Notes under the pieces: model-generated | Database searches by the model: none | What the model saw: the letters and a program-made list of their open reading frames with translations, nothing else | Told to the model about the DNA's origin: nothing | Translations under genes and position numbers: made by a program | NCBI GenBank assembly: GCA_027577595.1 | Contig: JANBRJ010000010.1 | Span: 124,001-188,000, forward strand | Direction: 5' to 3' | Origin: Coemansia sp. RSA 487 | Lineage: Eukaryota > Kickxellomycota > Kickxellomycetes > Kickxellales > Kickxellaceae | Length of the DNA: 64,000 nucleotides | Shown here: piece after piece, positions 1 through 63,998 of the stretch | Numbering within the stretch: the first letter of the stretch is position 1 | How the letters are laid out: each line of letters begins with the position of its first letter

Positions 1-1038
1 AGATGGAGATGTTGCTATTGTTGTTGCTGTTGTTGTTGTGCGATTGCCGCAGAATCGTTGGCAGAGTAGATATTGTGCTGTGTGTGAATGTTGTGGATGA
101 TATGGAAAAATGCTATTCGAATACGCCAGATATCTTGTCATTTATATACGCACCAGATACACCACATGTCTTTAAGTTTTTTTTTATTTAATTACACAGC
201 TGTACTTTTTGCTTATACCACACACTAATAGCGCATATTTGGCACATTAGCGATTGTGTTCAAGCGTCTAGGGTTGTCAAGCAAAATTCCATATATAGGC
301 AGTCTTATACTCGATATGCATAACGAAGTGATTGTTGTGACAACCTTTCTGGTGTTACTTATTCCACAAGTCTGCTTCCAGGCATTCGCTAATCAACTAA
401 GTAGGTTGTCTTCTGGAAGATATGTGGTTAGATGCGCGGTTTGAAAATTGCTGGGATATATGTGCTCTGTCTGGTATTTTTAGAAATGCATAGCAATAAA
501 TAAAACACCAATGCCTTTTTACAGGCGATGATCATCAATACACATGCAGGTGAATGCAATATCTACAGCCATCTATTTTTAAAAAGTGCGTTTAAATGTT
601 TGGATTTAACCAGGCTTGATTTTCTTGATTGGTGGAGCATGCACACTTTCTACTGGCATGAAACTAAAACGCTGCTCTAAAAATAGACCGTTTTTACATG
701 GAGATTTATGAAGAACAATGTCTAACTGCTTTATTTTTAGCAAAGGATGCTACGTAACGACATGAGATATCCACGCATTTGGTGCCCAGTATTCATAGAC
801 CGTCGCTAAATATAGACATGCTATACACACGAGCATATTTAGGCTCTATCTAGAACAGCATACACACGTTTCTCAACGAAAAAGAGATAACCAAAACACT
901 GCGCTGGATAGATAGAATAAACAGCTATTCTATTCAGGCATCCTTCCTGCATCGTATACGGAGGGTTGTCAATATACTTTGTCATTTGCAAATGGAATGC
1001 CACATATTCTGGAGACAAACAATTGCCCGAAAATCGGG
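1..1038. other. Intergenic, upstream of the lysozyme gene
   Basis: No convincing gene. A short TTG/CTG trinucleotide run lies near bases 11-40. The remainder is AT-rich; its short open frames have no recognisable domain and no fungal-gene-like composition. Confidence 0.6.
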
Positions 1039-1046
1039 TATAAAAG
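1039..1046 (+). promoter_or_regulatory. TATA box of the lysozyme gene
   Basis: TATAAAAG lies about 166 bases before the chosen start codon at 1205. That leaves room for transcription to begin near 1070 and for a leader of about 130 bases. This is inferred from the motif and spacing only. Confidence 0.55.
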
Positions 1047-1204
1047 AAACCGATTGCGCCCTGCAATTCAATCATTCAAACACACATCTTATCAACGATA
1101 CCAGCAACAGAAACAGAAACAGCATCAGCTTTACCAGCAACGACTCTGCAACTACACACCTCTCCTGCAATTTACTACAACTCATTAGCTATCCAATTCC
1201 AACA

Positions 1205-2020
1205 ATGAAGATCGCCGCCGTTACCGCAACCGCAGCCTTTGTCCTGGGCTCTTTTGCTCCTGCCAATGGCTACGCCATCACAGGCGACGTCGTCAATTGC
1301 CGCTCAGGCCCCGGCACAAGCTACAGCGTTAAAACGACATACAAGAAGGGCCAGAACGTCTCGGTCTCCTGCCAAACGGCTGGCACCAGCGTCAATGGCA
1401 ACTCCATTTGGGACAAGACTGCCGACGGCTGCTACGTGTCCGACTACTATGTGTCCACAGGCAGCAGCGGCTATGTGACCACAAAGTGCAGCACCGGAGG
1501 CAGCACCGGAGGCGGCAGCAGCAGCTACTGCCCAAACATCAACAGCGCCGGCATCGATATGGTTGCGCAGTTTGAGGGCTTTGTGGCTAGCCCCTCGCCC
1601 GATCCTATTGGCCTCCCAACCGTCGGCTACGGCCATCTGTGCAAGCAAAAGAACTGCGCCGAGGTCAAGTATAAATTCCCGCTGACCACCACCACCGCCA
1701 AGCAGCTTCTCAACGACGACCTGCCTGTATACACAAAGTGCCTTGCCGGCTACCTCAACAGCAAGCCCAAGCTCAACGACAACCAGTGGGCGGCGCTGAC
1801 ATCCTGGGTGTTCAACGTCGGCTGCGGCAACGCAAAGACCTCGACGCTTGTCAAGCGCCTCAACAACGGCGAGAGCCCCAACACCGTCGCTGCGCAGGAG
1901 TTGCCCAAGTGGAGAATGGCCGGCGGCAAGGTTATGCAGGGGCTTGTCAACCGTCGCGCTGCCGAGGTCAAGCTTTTCAAGACCGCCTCCTCCAAGCAGG
2001 CATATCCAAAGTGCTCGTAA
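1205..2020 (+). CDS. Secreted SH3b-GH24 lysozyme (phage-type muramidase)
   Basis: A 271-residue secreted enzyme predicted to cleave the MurNAc-GlcNAc bond of bacterial peptidoglycan. Residues 1-24 form a signal peptide (Lys, then a hydrophobic Ala/Val/Leu core ending near NGYA). Residues about 25-95 are a Cys-rich bacterial-type SH3 domain with the VNCRSGPGT motif. A Gly/Ser linker follows, then a GH24 domain from about 110. The T4-lysozyme triad spacing is exact: Glu124, Asp133 and Thr139, followed by VGYGH. The frame is open farther upstream, but the signal peptide fixes the start at 1205. Such enzymes are known from several fungi and descend from bacterial or phage genes. The likely role is defence against, or feeding on, bacteria. 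Confidence 0.9.
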   Translation: MKIAAVTATAAFVLGSFAPANGYAITGDVVNCRSGPGTSYSVKTTYKKGQNVSVSCQTAGTSVNGNSIWDKTADGCYVSDYYVSTGSSGYVTTKCSTGGSTGGGSSSYCPNINSAGIDMVAQFEGFVASPSPDPIGLPTVGYGHLCKQKNCAEVKYKFPLTTTTAKQLLNDDLPVYTKCLAGYLNSKPKLNDNQWAALTSWVFNVGCGNAKTSTLVKRLNNGESPNTVAAQELPKWRMAGGKVMQGLVNRRAAEVKLFKTASSKQAYPKCS

Positions 2021-38305: not shown

Positions 38306-39688
38306 ATGGCATCTGGCACCGTTGCTCAGCCGCGCAGTTTATCAAACGACGACCCGTACAAGCACCAACCCGGGTTTGGAAACCACTTTTCGTCAGAAGC
38401 CCTTGAAGGCGCTCTTCCCGTAGGGCAGAACACGCCTCAGGTTTGTCCATATGGCTTGTATGCCGAGCAGCTTTCAGGCACAGCGTTCACCGTGGGGCGC
38501 AGCGGGAATCAGCGCAGCTGGTTCTACCGCATCCGCCCATCAGTAATGCACCTGCCATTTGAGCCGTACCGCACGGACCAGCACGGGATAGTTGGTGCGT
38601 TCGACGCCAAAACAACGGAGGCGACTCCGACGCAAATGCGCTGGCTGCCCTTCACAATCCCCGCCGAGCCTGGCATTGACTTTGTTGACGGCATGCACAC
38701 TATCGGCGGCGCTGGCGACACTGCACTGAAGAACGGTATTGCCGTGCACGTCTACATGGCTACGCAATCGATGAACAGACGCGCATTTGGCAATTCGGAC
38801 GGCGATTTTCTGATTGTTCCGCAGCAGGGGCGTCTAGATATTGCTACCGAGTTCGGGCCGATGATGGTCGCACCTAACGAGATTGCTGTTATCCAACGCG
38901 GAATGCGGTTTTCCGTTTCGCTTCCCGACGGGCCCAGTCGCGGCTACATTCTGGAAGTGTACGACGGGCACTTTGAGCTACCTGATCTGGGTCCAATTGG
39001 CGCGAACGGGCTTGCTAATCCGCGCGATTTCAAGACACCAGTGGCAAAATACGAGAATGTCGAAGAAGAATGGTCGATTATCAACAAGTACCAGGGCGAA
39101 TTGTTTATTGCCTCGCAGGGCCACTCGCCGTTTGACGTCGTTGCTTGGCATGGCAATTATGCCCCATACAAATACAACCTGGCTGACTTTAGTGTCATCA
39201 ACTCGGTGAGCTTTGACCATGTCGATCCTTCCATCTTCACCGTGCTCACGTGCAAATCAGCGCATCCAGGAACAGCCGTGGCCGACTTTGTGATCTTCCC
39301 GCCACGCTTTGAGGTGCAAATGCACACGTTCCGTCCGCCTTACTTCCACCGCAACTGCATGAGCGAGTTCATGGGTCTGATCCACGGCGAGTACGAGGCA
39401 AAGAAGGGCGGGTTTTTGCCTGGAGGCGCCAGTCTGCACAGCATGATGGCTCCGCATGGCCCCGATGCCAAGACGGTCGAAAACGCCACCACCCGCGACC
39501 TTAATCCTGGGCGTGTTGCCGACAGGACCATGGCTTTCATGTTTGAATCAATGTTCCAGCTGCGCTTGACAAAGTGGGCGATCGAGCACAGACAGCGCGA
39601 CCGCGACTACTACAAGGTGTGGCAGAACATCCCTGTCACCTTTGATCCTAGCCAAAGAAAAGTTAGTGTCAAGAAAAGCACTGACTGA
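38306..39688 (+). CDS. HGD: Homogentisate 1,2-dioxygenase
   Basis: A 460-residue Fe(II) ring-cleaving enzyme of phenylalanine/tyrosine breakdown, converting homogentisate to maleylacetoacetate. The start reads [20 protein letters not shown] with PVGQNTPQ, then QLSGTAFT. The iron site is visible in [19 protein letters not shown] (His and Glu) and in the later His-containing [14 protein letters not shown]. Length equals the fungal and animal enzymes (about 445-460). No intron. The other genes of the pathway are not in the window. Confidence 0.97.
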
Positions 39689-39778
39689 GTTTATGTGATG
39701 CTGATTGAGCAAAACTAATCAGTGTCCTGAGATACATTGGCTCTGATTATGATCATAGATAATTAGGTGGTGGAAAGG

Positions 39779-39786
39779 TATAAATA
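39779..39786 (+). promoter_or_regulatory. Orphan TATA box downstream of HGD
   Basis: TATAAATA, then a leader-like stretch with a GTAAGC donor-like site near 39838, but no open frame follows on the plus strand. Transcription from here would run antisense into the 3' end of the Fanzor remnant. May be chance. Confidence 0.3.
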
Positions 39787-39911
39787 CTCTTGGTTGGATT
39801 GTGTTAACAAGAAGAGGGACTTTAGTTCCGTCTTAAAGTAAGCAAAATAATTGTGACAGTTTGGAGCTTCTTTGCAGCTGTTTGAAATACGTATTTGCCA
39901 ATGGCCTCCGA

Positions 39912-39977
39912 TTACCACTAACGTGTGGCAACCAAAGCCTTGTACCTGGCATTAATTTCCGCCCAGAACGGTTCTGG
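39912..39977 (-). other. Two hairpins just beyond the Fanzor 3' end
   Basis: Two inverted repeats lie 44-110 bases past the Fanzor stop. The nearer is CCAGAAC-G-GTTCTGG (39963-39977, perfect 7-base arms). The farther has arms TTACCAC and GTGGCAA around a 6-base loop (39912-39931, one G-U pair as RNA). Guide RNAs of TnpB and Fanzor systems are structured and arise near this end of the element, so this is a candidate guide-RNA scaffold or element end. Inference from position and folding by eye. Confidence 0.35.
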
Positions 39978-40020
39978 ACAGTTGGAGTGCAATAGCACCC
40001 AGGGAAAAATATGGTTGATG

Positions 40021-42012
40021 TTAAGACTGCTGCTGCGCTGTCGCTGAACGAGGCTTCTTTCTGGGCTGTGCAGAGCCACTGGCAGACCTCTTGGTGCCTC
40101 TCGCGGGTTTCTTGGTGTTTTTTGCCGGCGGAAGAGTGGTACCACGCCTAAAACGCTCAGGCCTCTCATGTGTTTGGCGCAGACTATGGAGGATATGCCT
40201 GAAATTCAATACAGCAAGATCTCTGTTCCAAAACCGAGCAGCAGGCGCTTTCCCGAGATGGTTAGCAGGCTTCATGTTATCTGCCACGTGCTCCACACAT
40301 TTTTTGTTTTGACACATTAGGAGTCCATGGCAAGTAACATACGCCTATTTTTTTTTGGGTAGGGCCTTGGGTTTGGAACCAGTTCTTCAGGATGCACGAG
40401 CCTGTCTTCGCAACAACCAGGGCAGAAAGCAGAGGTACGGAATTCATCCAACAGGTACACTTTGAACCCATGCTTTCGCAGCATCCTACGCATGCCTACA
40501 CCCCGGATGGGCTCATGGTACTTGCACATGCCAGTAGACCAATTCCCAAGAACCAGGGCAGGCTCAGAGCCAAACTGCTCACGGGTAAGGTTAGCAAGGA
40601 CATGGTCTGCCCTTTGGCTGTTAAGATAGGCCGCCAGACGCAGCTGCCGATGGAGTGGCTTTCTGTTCGTTGTGCTGTTTGTCTGTGTGCAGGAATAGAA
40701 CTTGCTCAGAAGGGGCCACACCTCAGCCTGGATCTCAATGAACCTCTTGAACTCATCAGGATCAACAGTGGTGCATGAAACCTCAGCCAGACTCTTCTCT
40801 GCCTCAATGATGGCATTGTCAGGGTACATCTTCTTGGCAGCTTCGAGGATCTTGCGGAACTTGGTAGAGCGAGTCAGCTTGGCCTTGTGATTGCGCGTAA
40901 ACCGGAATAGCCATGGATTCCCAATGGAGCTGTACTCATGCATGCAGAACAGAAGGCCCCTCCTGCCTGGGTCGATCAGCACACAGTTGCCTTCCATTGC
41001 ACACAGTTTGTCTTGGTCGATCGATCCAATGTACTCAAACTCGAATCCGTCTTCATCCTTTCCTTTCTTTGTCTTCGGTGTCTTGGCCTTGCACCTCTTG
41101 AAAATCGAGATCGACACACTATCAGTCTGAATTGAGCCTTCAAAACCCTTGCCATCCTGTTTGCTCTTGATCGCCCAGCAGCTTATGTCAAGGACCTCAC
41201 CCCAAAGGTCATTCGTAAGCTTCTGTCCCTTCTTGATGCCACCAAGGAACCACTGACAAAGGATAGCCTTGTCAATGTGGACATGGCATGGGATCCACTA
41301 TGTGCGAAGTGGCATGCACTGGAAGCTGCGGGGCTTATTTTGCTGGAAGAACCGAGCCAGAAGAAAGAAGGTTTTGACGTGCTTGACAGGGTCACACTTG
41401 ATGTCATAGTAGAGACCCTTTTCGCTAGGCGCATCATTTTCGTAGATGTAGAGTACTGATTGAAGTTCCTTGACCCGTTCGTAAATGTGTGCATCTAGCT
41501 CAGCTTCGACAATCTTGCCACGCTCAACGCATTTCTTGGCCTTGTCTGCTGGCCCCCCACACCTCGGCTCTTAGGGTATCTCGGATAGTATCAGCTGATG
41601 TGCCAGCAGCCTTGAGCTCAATCCTCTTTGCAAGTGCTTCGGTTTTAGACCTACAGAGCATGTTGACAGCTCTGCGTAGGCAGTTTCCGAGGCTATTCTT
41701 TACCGATGCAAGGAACGCAGTGTGTATCTTCTGGGCCTCATACCCAGCTATCTGAGCTATGTACGGGTGCTTTTGCTGCTTTATGCGTGACGCCTGTGCG
41801 TACTTGTCCCAGTGCTTGGCTATCAGGTTGCGAAGCTCCGTTGTGTCTGGCTGGTTATTTTCTACTTCCGATTTGACTTTGGGTTTCTTTGTCTTCTTCC
41901 GCGCACTGCCGACAGCTGCAGTTTTTCCACCGTTGACTTTCAAGATGACTTGTTTGAAAAAGGGAATGCAGACAGCGATCGAGCTTGAAATTGATGTCCT
42001 CGCGAAGCTCAT
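40021..42012 (-). pseudogene. Fanzor (TnpB-like RNA-guided nuclease) remnant
   Basis: A eukaryotic TnpB relative, probably Fanzor2-like, carried by a DNA transposon. Reading the minus strand from about 42012 (possibly 42141) to 40021 gives about 660 residues spread over three frames. Landmarks in order: a basic KKTKKPKVKSE leader; a helical recognition region (AKHWDKYAQASRIKQQKH); the RuvC-I Asp in VLIDPGRRG; LVLGNWS; the RuvC-II Glu in LLDEFRTS; a zinc ribbon from CPGC to CHGLLMCQNKKC; and the RuvC-III Asp in WNRDLAVLNF. All three catalytic acids remain. Two frame changes fall at homopolymers (C6 at 41553, T9 at 40348), and one in-frame TAG is at 41298-41300. It is therefore broken, yet young, or the assembly has homopolymer errors. 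Family facts: TnpB and some Fanzors cut DNA guided by RNA encoded beside the gene. No terminal inverted repeats or target duplication were found. Confidence 0.85.
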
Positions 42013-42138
42013 ATATGAATATCCAGCGAGAAAAATTATAAGAATGGCGAGTGTTGTGATTTGTTGTTTTAATAAGCTTTCGAAGTGGTGGTTTGTATTT
42101 GTGGTGCTAGCTGACGGCCTGCAAAGGAACCTTGACAA

Positions 42139-42179
42139 CATACACCTCGTCGTTGCGTGCCATCAGAGGTGTGTGTATG
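42139..42179. repeat. Inverted repeat at the 5' side of the Fanzor gene
   Basis: CATACACCTC (42139-42148) is matched by GAGGTGTGTGTATG (42166-42179), which equals its reverse complement plus a TG-repeat insert of 4 bases. The 17-base spacer makes a plausible hairpin. It could mark the element's other end, but the TG-rich arm may arise by chance. Confidence 0.35.
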
Positions 42180-42969
42180 TGTATGTGTTGAGATAAAAGG
42201 AAAGGATGAGGTTAAAATGAGATTTTGTAGGTTTAATAAATAAGTCGCTGCAACACAAAAGGGGCTTTTTCTCTACACTCTGTAGTTATTTCCAAAGAGA
42301 GTATAGCTTTTTTATTCTTGCAATAGGAAGGTGAGCTCTTTCCCATCTGTTTTTTGCTTCTTGATTGTTTTTTGTAGATATATCATCTCTTTCTTTTTAT
42401 CAGATTGTGTTTTTCTTTTATCAGGTTGTATTTATTTTTTGTGGCACACGCACCAAGGGGTAAGCAAATGCAACATGGTGGGAGCACGAATGCCTTCAAA
42501 TACACATTCCTTTCAACACTTCTTTCTCTTTCTGATTTTTAGCTGTTATCAACGCTGTTCGTTTTCTCTCCTTTATTGTAATCGTATTATTTTCCCTCTT
42601 CTGACATTAATACTTCCTTTTCCTTTTCCTGTTAACCGACGTTTGTTTGATCTTTCCATGTCGTTGTTTATTTTGCAAATTAATAAACATAATCTACACT
42701 ACACTTCAAGCAAGAGTAAGTATACTGGTGGAGTCTTCAAAGGACAACCACTGCAACTGTATTTGTTAAAAGGCGCGATAAAGAAAGCAACGTCTATAGC
42801 ACACAGCTACTGAGCTAGCATCTGGTGGCGGTGGATGGTGTGCTGGCTAGAAAAGCTGGTGGGCTTTCCATATGAGTGATAATACAGTGGTTAGCCAATG
42901 TTTTTTCTGTTTAGCTTTTCAATATTAGCAAAATACCAGTGCACTATGAAGCTACCTTTTCAAACTACA
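42180..42969. other. Intergenic region
   Basis: About 790 T-rich bases. A 160-codon plus-strand frame at 42331 is F/S/L-rich with no domain and is not called. A GTAAGT donor-like site occurs near 42716. Nothing else recognised. Confidence 0.5.
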
Positions 42970-43689
42970 TTAGCTGCTACGTTTATTCAGCAGATGTTTA
43001 AGGGCATCTTGTTGCAACTTTAGAATGGCTGGATTGGACGATGGATAAAACCCAGGGACCCCAAGCTTCTGTAATTCCATCTGCTGCTGGTATCGCAGCT
43101 CGTCCAATTTGCTGACCGCCCTTTTGTCCGCCCGCTCCAGCTCCATGGCATGCTGGCGTAAAACTGCTTCCTTTTCGTGACTGGGCACAGGTGCAATAAT
43201 TTCGCGTGCCTCGAGATGCTGCAGTGCCACCGAGTGTCCATGCTGAATTCGTTTCCTGTGCTCATACAAGCGCCGCTCAAAGTCATTCTGAGCTGCGCAA
43301 AGCGCTTCAACTCGATTCATCACTTCTGTGCTAAGATGTAGATTGGCAGCAAAGTCTGTGGTATCGAAACTGTTGCTATCGTCTGTTTGTTTGAACGAAG
43401 CAAACATCTGGTCTTCTGGCTGGCTGGATGCCTCGGCTCCTTCAGCTGGATGGTCTCTGTTATGCAGGTTGTTATCTGTAGTGCTATGCTGTCCGGAAAA
43501 TATATCTGGAGCAGGCGGAATAGCCCATTTAGTTGTGTCTGGCTCACCTTCATAAGATAGCCGAATGCGCTTTGGTTCTGTGTCTGTGCTTGAGGCATCC
43601 TGCTGCAACTCGGTATTGTGAATATTGCTCTTTGCACATGCTAGTCGACTCTGTTCCTCAAGAAGCTGGTCCTCTGGAGAGTAAAACAT
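42970..43689 (-). CDS. DGCR6-like coiled-coil protein
   Basis: A 239-residue protein. The C-terminal 110 residues resemble animal DGCR6: a helical stretch with HRKRIQHGH, then KLDELRYQQQMELQKLGVPG continuing into GFYPSSNPAILKLQQD. The human counterpart, from memory, has an LEKAGVAGFYVTTNP motif at the same place. The first 110 residues are polar and probably disordered, apart from a short N-terminal helix. Family function is poorly known in fungi. The match rests on the short C-terminal motif and the overall helical layout. Confidence 0.7.
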   Translation of the reverse strand: MFYSPEDQLLEEQSRLACAKSNIHNTELQQDASSTDTEPKRIRLSYEGEPDTTKWAIPPAPDIFSGQHSTTDNNLHNRDHPAEGAEASSQPEDQMFASFKQTDDSNSFDTTDFAANLHLSTEVMNRVEALCAAQNDFERRLYEHRKRIQHGHSVALQHLEAREIIAPVPSHEKEAVLRQHAMELERADKRAVSKLDELRYQQQMELQKLGVPGFYPSSNPAILKLQQDALKHLLNKRSS

Positions 43690-43985
43690 CGGGTTTGTTT
43701 ACTTTAAAAACATATTATTTACAATAATCGCACGTTGAACAAAGCAGAAAGAGATAGATGATGTTAGGAAACACGACAGCAGGAAACACTCCCTCAGAAA
43801 AGGGGGAGGTTCCAGTATGCTCGCTTGGGAGGTTAGACCTCAACTACTATGGTTTATGTCCGAGCAGGATTGACGTTACAAGTCCAGGATTTTGTTTGAT
43901 TCACTCAGTGATTAGACAGCTGTCCACAATTAGCTTGAGCAATAAAAGTAGGCCTGCACAGCACTCTCAGCTAGCGGAGCTAGGA

Positions 43986-61323: not shown

Positions 61324-63998
61324 TTAGTTGGCGCTATTAATCAAAAGTTCTACTGGTTTCCACTTCTTAGTAGCGACATCGAGCTTGTGTAGTTGAGTCA
61401 GAATATGCACAACGTTGCTGCCAATAGCAATCCCAATGTCGACGCGCTCGGTGCACCTGGAAAGACATGCTGGGTACCTATTTTCTATTATCTGGCCCAG
61501 TGCTTTTTTAGCCAGGGCTTCGTGGTGCCTAATGTTATCACGTTTTTCTCGAGGAATCAGCTTAAACTCAATCAGAACCCCAAACTGATTTGGCTTGTTG
61601 TCGGTGCTGTATAACCGCATCAAATGGTCGCAGTGCCCGTCGCCTGTGTGGTTCTCGCGTGTTGTAACAGCATGCGATGTATGGGAGGATGCCTGATCTG
61701 GGTGCGAGAGTGCTCCAAGACACGATGCTGCTGTTAATACCGTTGCCACAATGTTGGCATAATGCTTCTCCTTGTATTTTGCATGGTTGGTGAGTGTGCC
61801 GAATGCCTCCTTGATAAAGCTGGAAAGAATCGCAGTCTTGCCTTCCCAAAGCTCAACAAGCAACGATCCACGGGCATTGACCTCAGCTCTTTCCACAAAC
61901 CCTGTTCCCAACAGCGTACGTGTGAAAAGAGTGCACCACACATTATATACTTCGTGGTTTGGGATGCACACCGAGTCTGGATGCTTGTGTGTCAGATAGC
62001 CAGCGAAAAGACAGAGCGTGAGCATCCCTTCTGTCGAATACTTACCGGAATTGACGATGTTCATATTTGGCTTAGGAAGCTGCAGTGAAACTGCTTGGCT
62101 GTTACTGAGAGCAAGGTCGTGGTCAAGCCCGCCAAGCCTTGTCTCCCTGTATTCGCGAATCAGGCTTTCCATTAAGCGAATGGCTTGATGACGATGGTTG
62201 GTAAACTGTTGTTCGATAAGATCGGTTGTGCCTGTAGCTACCCAATGTGCTCTGGCTGCGGGTTTAATGGCATCAGGTACATTTCGAAGCTCCCCATACT
62301 CAGACGACACTAGTTGGCTGCAGAGGCATTCGATAAAAGCGCATACTGACCATGGATTGTACTTGCCACGGAACCGCCCAAAATAATACCCATTGTACCA
62401 ATCCTTTATCACAGCCATAACTTCATCCCTGTGTTCGGCTATCTGCGGAAAGCGAGTGGCGCTCGTTTCCAGCAACCCTTCAACCTCCTTCGTGTTAAAC
62501 CAGAAAGAGTCTGTCAATGCGTCCAAGCCCCTGCCAGAGTGCTTGTAGGTGGCGCTGACGATACTGCCATTCCCTGTTACATGCTTGAACGGCACCATCG
62601 GAAAATCCACAATATTGTTCGCACCAGATCCGAGCTCTGTCAACGGCACCTCAAACACGCCAACCAAGAGGCCTTTACGAAGGTAGCGGTTGTCCTATAG
62701 CACCAGAAAAATGGCAAAAGTAGCAAAAGCATGTATGTGACAAGCGGTTTACACAAATAAGAGGTTTGGAAGAGTTGGTTGCAACTTACCTTGAACATTG
62801 CCTGAATCAAACCCTTGAGTGAGTTTTGCGCCTCTTCCTTCTCCTCATCGCTCCACGATTTCAAATGAGCATGGATAAAAGGGACGTCATATTCGTCGAT
62901 GAGTAGAATGTATTTACCAATACATTCGCCCACAAATTCCGATAGACCTATAAAAAGTTGCATTGGCATGTCTGCATACTCGCTGGCAAAATTTTTGGTG
63001 GCATATCTAGCATCCTTGTAAACGGCGAGGGTTTTCTGAAGCGTTTGTAGGTATATGTTGGTGTTTTCAACTTCAACACCTTCGATAAGAGGGTATTGTT
63101 TCAGCCAGTTATTGGCAGCAGTTGCAATCGCATCACAGAGTCTAACATAAAATCTCCCAACCGGCGTCCCCTTACACAAACTAAACGAGATGTGTATCAC
63201 TGGGTGCTTCATGAAATGTTCGTCGAAAAACACACGGTGCTTCTCCTTGAGCAATGAATCCTCGAATAACAGTGTGCGCTTTAGCTGACACTTTGTAGCA
63301 ACATCCATCTGTCGTATCTGCTCTGCTGATTGGCCAAGCTCTTCAATCGCGCTGTCTGGAACATCTAGATGTGACTCTTCTGGTGCCATGCTACAGAAGA
63401 GAAGCAGCTGAATTAGGTTATATGTTTTTCCGGAACGACGTGGCAAACATATGCGACCAGATTCGCTAACCTGGTCCCAAAAGCCAATGCAGAAAAGCGA
63501 CTTGTCAACTCTACATAGATTAGCATTGCCGGCAGCAGCAAATTTGGCATTGACACCTACATAGGATCCAGAAACTCTGACCGGCGAACTGCTTAGTTTA
63601 AACAAACGCAATGCCTCTTCAGGAGCCCGTGGTTCTGGCGTATGTGGTTCCGGCGTTCGCATTTCGGGTGGTGGCGGACTGATGCTTAACGCTTCAGAAG
63701 ATTGCGGTTCTGGAATGTGCTGTTCTGGTGTACGCACTTCAGGTGGCGGACTGCTGCTTAGCGCTTCAGGTGGGTCAATGCTAGTTGGTGGCTGGTGGCG
63801 TGTCTCGTTTGCTCTGCTGGTGTTTCGCTTTCGGCGCATAAGCTCATCTGTAATAAGCCCAATCTCGTCTTCTTTGTCAGGCACGTTCTTCCTAGCGGTT
63901 CAGAACTTTTGAAAACAAAAGCATGTTTAGTACGCATTGTTGGACATTGTCGACTGCCAAAATGAGCTCCGTGGAAATAAATGTTTGTACCTTTTCAT
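61324..63998 (-). CDS. AAA-ATPase-like/PD-(D/E)XK nuclease-family protein (spliced)
   Basis: A protein of about 826 residues combining an AAA-ATPase-like domain with a C-terminal PD-(D/E)XK (DUF1703) domain, a pair greatly multiplied in early fungi and in bacteria. Walker A is LPRRSGKT, Walker B LLIDEYDVPF; the nuclease core shows LIEFK followed by ALGQIIENRY. Two introns are inferred. 62695-62789 has a GTAAGT donor and TATAG acceptor and joins MFK to DNRYLRKG in frame. 63892-63990 links a tiny first exon (8 bases, ATG at 63998) to the main exon through a GCTAG acceptor and a TACTAAAC branch site. The N-terminus has proline-rich repeats (SPPPEVRTPEQHIPEP). Biological role unknown; defence or mobile-element roles have been suggested. 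The first exon touches the window edge, so it could extend further. Confidence 0.8.

Follow-up and report, generated by a model that had tools for sequence, protein, structure and literature searches.

A decayed Fanzor1 gene and the candidate ends of the transposon that probably carried it

The minus strand of the window, the whole stretch of 64,000 nucleotides (64 kb) that was analysed, harbors the remnants of a Fanzor1 protein in five pieces and three reading frames, all within one intergenic gap flanked by a homogentisate dioxygenase gene (38306-39688, plus strand) and a DGCR6-like gene (42970-43698, minus strand). The best explanation, to which we assign a probability of roughly 0.88, is that 39778-42725, a stretch of about 2.95 kb, is a DNA transposon now dead, in which the sole recognisable gene, about 710 codons long, encoded a Fanzor1 nuclease. 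The Fanzor1 remnant was probably carried by what was once a jumping gene, which would have inserted between the two flanking genes. The coordinates of all features are collected in Table 1.

Table 1. Features of the Fanzor1 pseudogene and of the candidate element around it
Feature	Position	Strand	Remarks
Fanzor1 pseudogene	40021-42163	-	ATG 42163-42161 to TAA 40023-40021, five breaks
N-terminal piece, first frame	41945-42163	-	In-frame TAG at 42109-42107; PpFz1 match
N-terminal-half piece, second frame	41556-41850	-	PpFz1 chain 597-696, E 2.7e-8
N-terminal-half piece, third frame	41301-41570	-	PpFz1 chain 721-778, E 5.7e-4; ended by TAG 41300-41298
Central piece, third frame	40320-41297	-	PpFz1 E 4.3e-48, SpuFz1 E 6.2e-26; RuvC-I Asp, RuvC-II Glu, CPGC
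C-terminal piece, second frame again	40021-40344	-	PpFz1 E 6.2e-8, SpuFz1 E 0.11; CHGLLMC, RuvC-III Asp, basic tail
Putative guide RNA scaffold stretch, stop codon to inverted repeat	39778-40020	-	Position by analogy with SpuFz1
Candidate terminal inverted repeat, end downstream of the Fanzor gene	39778-39802	+	20/25 complementary to 42701-42725
Candidate terminal inverted repeat, end upstream of the Fanzor gene	42701-42725	-	Partner of 39778-39802
Candidate target-site duplication, copy 1	39768-39777	.	7/10 shared with copy 2, including all of the first seven
Candidate target-site duplication, copy 2	42726-42735	.	Directly outside the inverted repeat

Homology, extent and catalytic site of the Fanzor1 remnant

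PpFz1 of Parasitella parasitica (PDB 9cf0-9cf3; Xu et al. 2024, PMC11423790) is the top match of all five pieces among solved structures (chain 9cf0_P), and the order is collinear, the matched chain segments being, in turn, 529-575, 597-696, 721-778, 781-991 plus 1096-1197, and 1199-1255 (chain numbers refer to a fusion with maltose-binding protein). For the N-terminal piece, the part after the in-frame TAG matches PpFz1 at E 2.9e-4, or at E 4.1e-5 over chain 516-573 when the TAG is read as X. This match and that of the third-frame N-terminal-half piece (E 5.7e-4) are modest on their own, and they become convincing because they are collinear with the other pieces. In the search with piece 41556-41850, an unrelated designed repeat protein (8etq) appeared at E 7.8e-4, with no single stretch passing. 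Fanzor1 stands on top of the lists of solved-structure matches for all five pieces, which contain no Fanzor2 or TnpB chain, while Pfam and NCBIfam scans of four of the pieces returned no family at cut-off and gave weak sub-cut-off matches such as TTD (E 0.0062). Sequence comparison supports the identification of the locus as a decayed Fanzor1, nearest to PpFz1 among solved structures, and the proposal of a decayed Fanzor gene on the minus strand, made in a preliminary description of this DNA, is borne out by the five collinear matches, the best of which reaches E 4.3e-48.

The pseudogene spans 2143 nt (42163-40021); its approximately 710 codons are close to the 600-700 residues that passages of Xu et al. 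(2024, PMC11423790) give for most Fz1 proteins. The preliminary description had placed the gene start at 42012, but the frame there does not match PpFz1, and the PpFz1-matching frame at the 5' end is a different one that opens at ATG 42163-42161, so the true extent is that given in Table 1. The basic N-terminal leader proposed earlier does not hold either: its opening residues come from a frame other than the PpFz1-matching one, and the basic residues after them lie within the protein rather than at its N-terminus.

The motifs quoted earlier (VLIDPGRRG, LLDEFRTS, CPGC, CHGLLMC and WNRDLAVLNF) are all found on the minus strand inside 40021-42012. Passages of Bao and Jurka (2013, PMC3627910) give, for Fanzor together with TnpB, the pattern D-X(125,275)-[TS]-[TS]-X-X-[C4 zinc finger]-X(5,50)-RD, and by eye the locus contains the D at 40973, TSAFCPGC, CHGLLMC...KKC and an NRD ending at 40219. 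The frame change splits the zinc ribbon, leaving CPGC (from 40424) in the central piece and CHGLLMC (from 40332) in the C-terminal piece. Fanzor1 features described in parts of a 2023 NAR paper (PMC10711439) include a DPG motif at RuvC-I and an alternative Glu of RuvC-II, both common to Fanzor2 and some TnpBs; here, LIDPG and LLDEFRTS align with PpFz1 and SpuFz1. The same source describes a TDG motif in the WED domain as characteristic of Fanzor1, whereas the locus has TDS (from 41126) where PpFz1 and SpuFz1 have TDG. Confidence in the Fanzor1 label is lowered, TDG being characteristic, but the label is kept because TDS differs by one residue in a decayed copy.

The preliminary description had named failure of the three acidic motifs to align with the Fanzor/TnpB RuvC positions as grounds for abandoning its reading, and counterparts are found in SpuFz1 for all three. 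The RuvC-I Asp (40973-40971) aligns with D383 and the RuvC-II Glu (40445-40443) with E541, while the RuvC-III Asp (40221-40219) aligns with D606 in a weak match (E 0.11), where the position was obtained by manual counting with an unchanged offset of 394; this Asp is also aligned in PpFz1, at E 6.2e-8. In the structure, as described in passages of Saito et al. (2023, PMC10432273), D383, E541 and D606 coordinate magnesium ions. The RuvC D-E-D triad is present in full at the locus, and the earlier statement that all catalytic acids are kept stands.

In two parts of the central piece, 69 identities with PpFz1 occur over 203 aligned residues and 44 over 100, and the RuvC acids and zinc-ribbon cysteines are the same in both. 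The locus is broken, unlike PpFz1, and has a basic tail of 39 residues beyond the last PpFz1-aligned residue. This K/R-rich tail (40021-40140, minus strand) is one that we take to resemble a nuclear localisation signal. PpFz1 chain 992-1095 has no counterpart here and presumably corresponds to the FRI insertion, which Xu et al. (PMC11423790) describe as binding cyclophilin. SpuFz1 of Spizellomyces punctatus (PDB 8gkh; Saito et al. 2023, PMC10432273), with which the central piece aligns, is more distant from the locus than PpFz1; its N385 is replaced by glycine here, as it is in PpFz1.

Breaks in the gene and their possible causes

Two in-frame TAG codons and three frame changes interrupt the gene. 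The first frame change falls somewhere in the interval 41965-41850, probably close to 41950, and the other two near 41556 and at about 40343-40338; the broken frame reported earlier is confirmed by these five breaks. Codon statistics in 60-base windows were trained on 18 open frames of the 64-kb window that were picked for openness. Among windows starting at 42190-42010 they favored the homologous frame in 6 of 7, among those starting at 41950-41590 in 11 of 13, and among those starting at 41560-40480 in 34 of 37. The statistics fail at the 3' end of the gene, where the homologous frame is best in 0 of 4 windows starting at 40450-40360, with another frame on top, and in 1 of 10 starting at 40330-40060; the last piece is therefore assigned by homology alone. 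Barring assembly error, we infer that the gene is a pseudogene and that its function has been lost, as the two in-frame stops and three frame changes now bar a full-length product from the copy as assembled.

Two other readings of the breaks would leave a working gene. Some or all of them could be assembly errors in a gene that is intact in the organism, and it fits this reading that single-base runs coincide with or adjoin no fewer than two of the three frame changes and that the RuvC half is collinear with SpuFz1, with no large loss. However, both in-frame TAG codons lie away from such runs, and five errors in one gene are unlikely when the neighbours have long open frames, which leaves assembly error improbable; the 18 frames used for codon statistics were chosen as open and hence provide no unbiased control for such errors. 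Even less credible is a working gene with introns at the breaks. Splicing does seem to occur in this genome, judging by a GTAAGT...TATAG stretch (62789-62695) in an AAA-ATPase-like gene. In PpFz1 numbering, the matches on either side of TAG 41300-41298 adjoin, as do those on either side of the frame change near 40340, so there is no room for an intron at these two breaks, and in a test confined to GTRNGT donors and YAG acceptors, no pair 40-250 nt apart was found across either of these breaks. Pairs across the other three breaks would cut out PpFz1-matching sequence, and a donor at 40342, just beyond the point taken for the last break, would remove a PpFz1-matching part of the zinc ribbon. Introns were rejected as the cause of the breaks, given the adjoining matches and, among GTRNGT donors and YAG acceptors, the lack of pairs that fit without loss of homologous sequence.

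Elsewhere in the window, the apparent GTAAGT...TATAG intron separates an AAA-ATPase-like part (62640-63899, minus strand; PF09820, E 5.5e-6) from a PD-(D/E)XK nuclease-like part (61324-62694, minus strand; PF08011, E 2.1e-4, below cut-off). A phage-type lysozyme domain (PF00959, E 6.9e-39; 854-2020, plus strand) follows a weak bacterial-SH3-like match in a window that looks eukaryotic. Rfam at the gathering threshold and a tRNA scan found nothing in the 64-kb window.

Candidate element ends and the putative guide RNA

The candidate ends, absent from the preliminary description and new in the present analysis, are defined by the best inverted repeat shared by the stretches on either side of the gene, and by a direct repeat adjoining it. 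Mismatches number 5 of 25 in the terminal inverted repeats (TIRs) and 3 of 10 in the copies of the target-site duplication (TSD). Shuffled sequences reached an inverted repeat of 20/25 in 1 of 200 and, in a separate run, 8 of 1500 cases, and a 19-nt version in 7 of 200; a direct repeat satisfying the criterion beside the best inverted repeat occurred in 13 of 1500 shuffles, and both together in 0 of 1500. The direct-repeat criterion was fixed after the repeat had been noticed, and the shuffle figures therefore flatter the candidate duplication. A Fanzor1 relic without these ends, in which the inverted repeats are due to chance, is a reading to be weighed: it draws on the frequency with which shuffles equal the inverted repeat, and on the single copy on which the candidate ends rest. 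However, the direct repeat adjoins both ends, a combination that no shuffle reproduced, and the gene, with the repeats on both its sides, fits into a single intergenic gap, so that chance appears unlikely, though less so than assembly error or introns as causes of the breaks.

Eight further open frames that lie within the candidate element or overlap it were scanned against Pfam; none of the eight was assigned to a family, and no transposase was recognised among them. An imperfect tandem repeat (period 21, 2.4 copies; 42390-42440) lies inside the candidate element, in an AT-rich stretch upstream of the pseudogene. The candidate element resembles MuDR-type, transposase-less Fanzor1 elements, the nearest known arrangement, the likeness being one of arrangement. 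Passages of Bao and Jurka (2013, PMC3627910) describe such fungal elements, which lack a transposase and carry MuDR-like TIRs and 9-bp TSDs; their hosts are Mucor, Rhizopus and Phycomyces. ROr-4, PBl-3 and MCi-4 are of this kind, and the present element, likewise fungal and with no recognised transposase, has candidate TIRs and a candidate direct repeat of 10 nt. The SpuFz1 element, in the passages of Saito et al. (PMC10432273) that describe it, is likewise a Fanzor-only element with inverted repeats; it has 30-nt inverted repeats and 42 full or partial loci, whereas one broken copy is known here.

For SpuFz1 and insect-virus Fanzor1s, parts of two papers (PMC10432273, PMC10711439) place the source of the RNA at the element end that lies downstream of the gene; its guide comes from about 15 nt of the adjoining DNA. 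By analogy with PpFz1 and SpuFz1, the intact enzyme would bind an RNA made from the corresponding end of the present element, and, by analogy with SpuFz1 and the insect-virus proteins, this guide RNA would consist of a scaffold and a guide of about 15 nt from the flanking DNA. The D-E-D RuvC site would then cut DNA matching the guide, as judged from PpFz1 and SpuFz1. In the case of TnpB, cleavage of this kind is believed to promote copying of the element. The transposase would have been supplied from elsewhere, possibly by an element of the MuDR type. Five overlapping stretches of the putative guide region were folded, and all of them scored no better than shuffled sequence (z 0.39 to 1.19). 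It is very improbable that this element with a dead protein still makes a guide RNA used by an intact Fanzor1 elsewhere in the genome, as a 'ghost' guide locus of the kind proposed for Spizellomyces in passages of Saito et al. (2023, PMC10432273).

Relatives and significance

The suggestion that few Fanzors are described from such lineages finds no support in passages of Saito et al. (2023, PMC10432273); Fanzor1 genes are already known as widespread in fungi, and the locus is an ordinary further example. No literature pairing Fanzor with 'early-diverging fungi' was found, and in a search on Fanzor and Zoopagomycota groups Fanzor was not mentioned among the matches listed. In viral_contigs, 4 pattern matches were obtained with the central piece as query and 31 with a three-row alignment, and in genome_contigs 591 with the three-row alignment, with 0 confirmed relatives in each case. 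Two PpFz1 fragments used as queries for further Fanzor copies in the 64-kb window recovered this locus only, plus one match at E 0.12.

The locus leaves existing knowledge of Fanzor unchanged. Its contribution is one more Fanzor1 transposon relic, for which ends can be proposed, and host-genome searches for any intact sisters, or for guide RNA loci, could start from these candidate ends.
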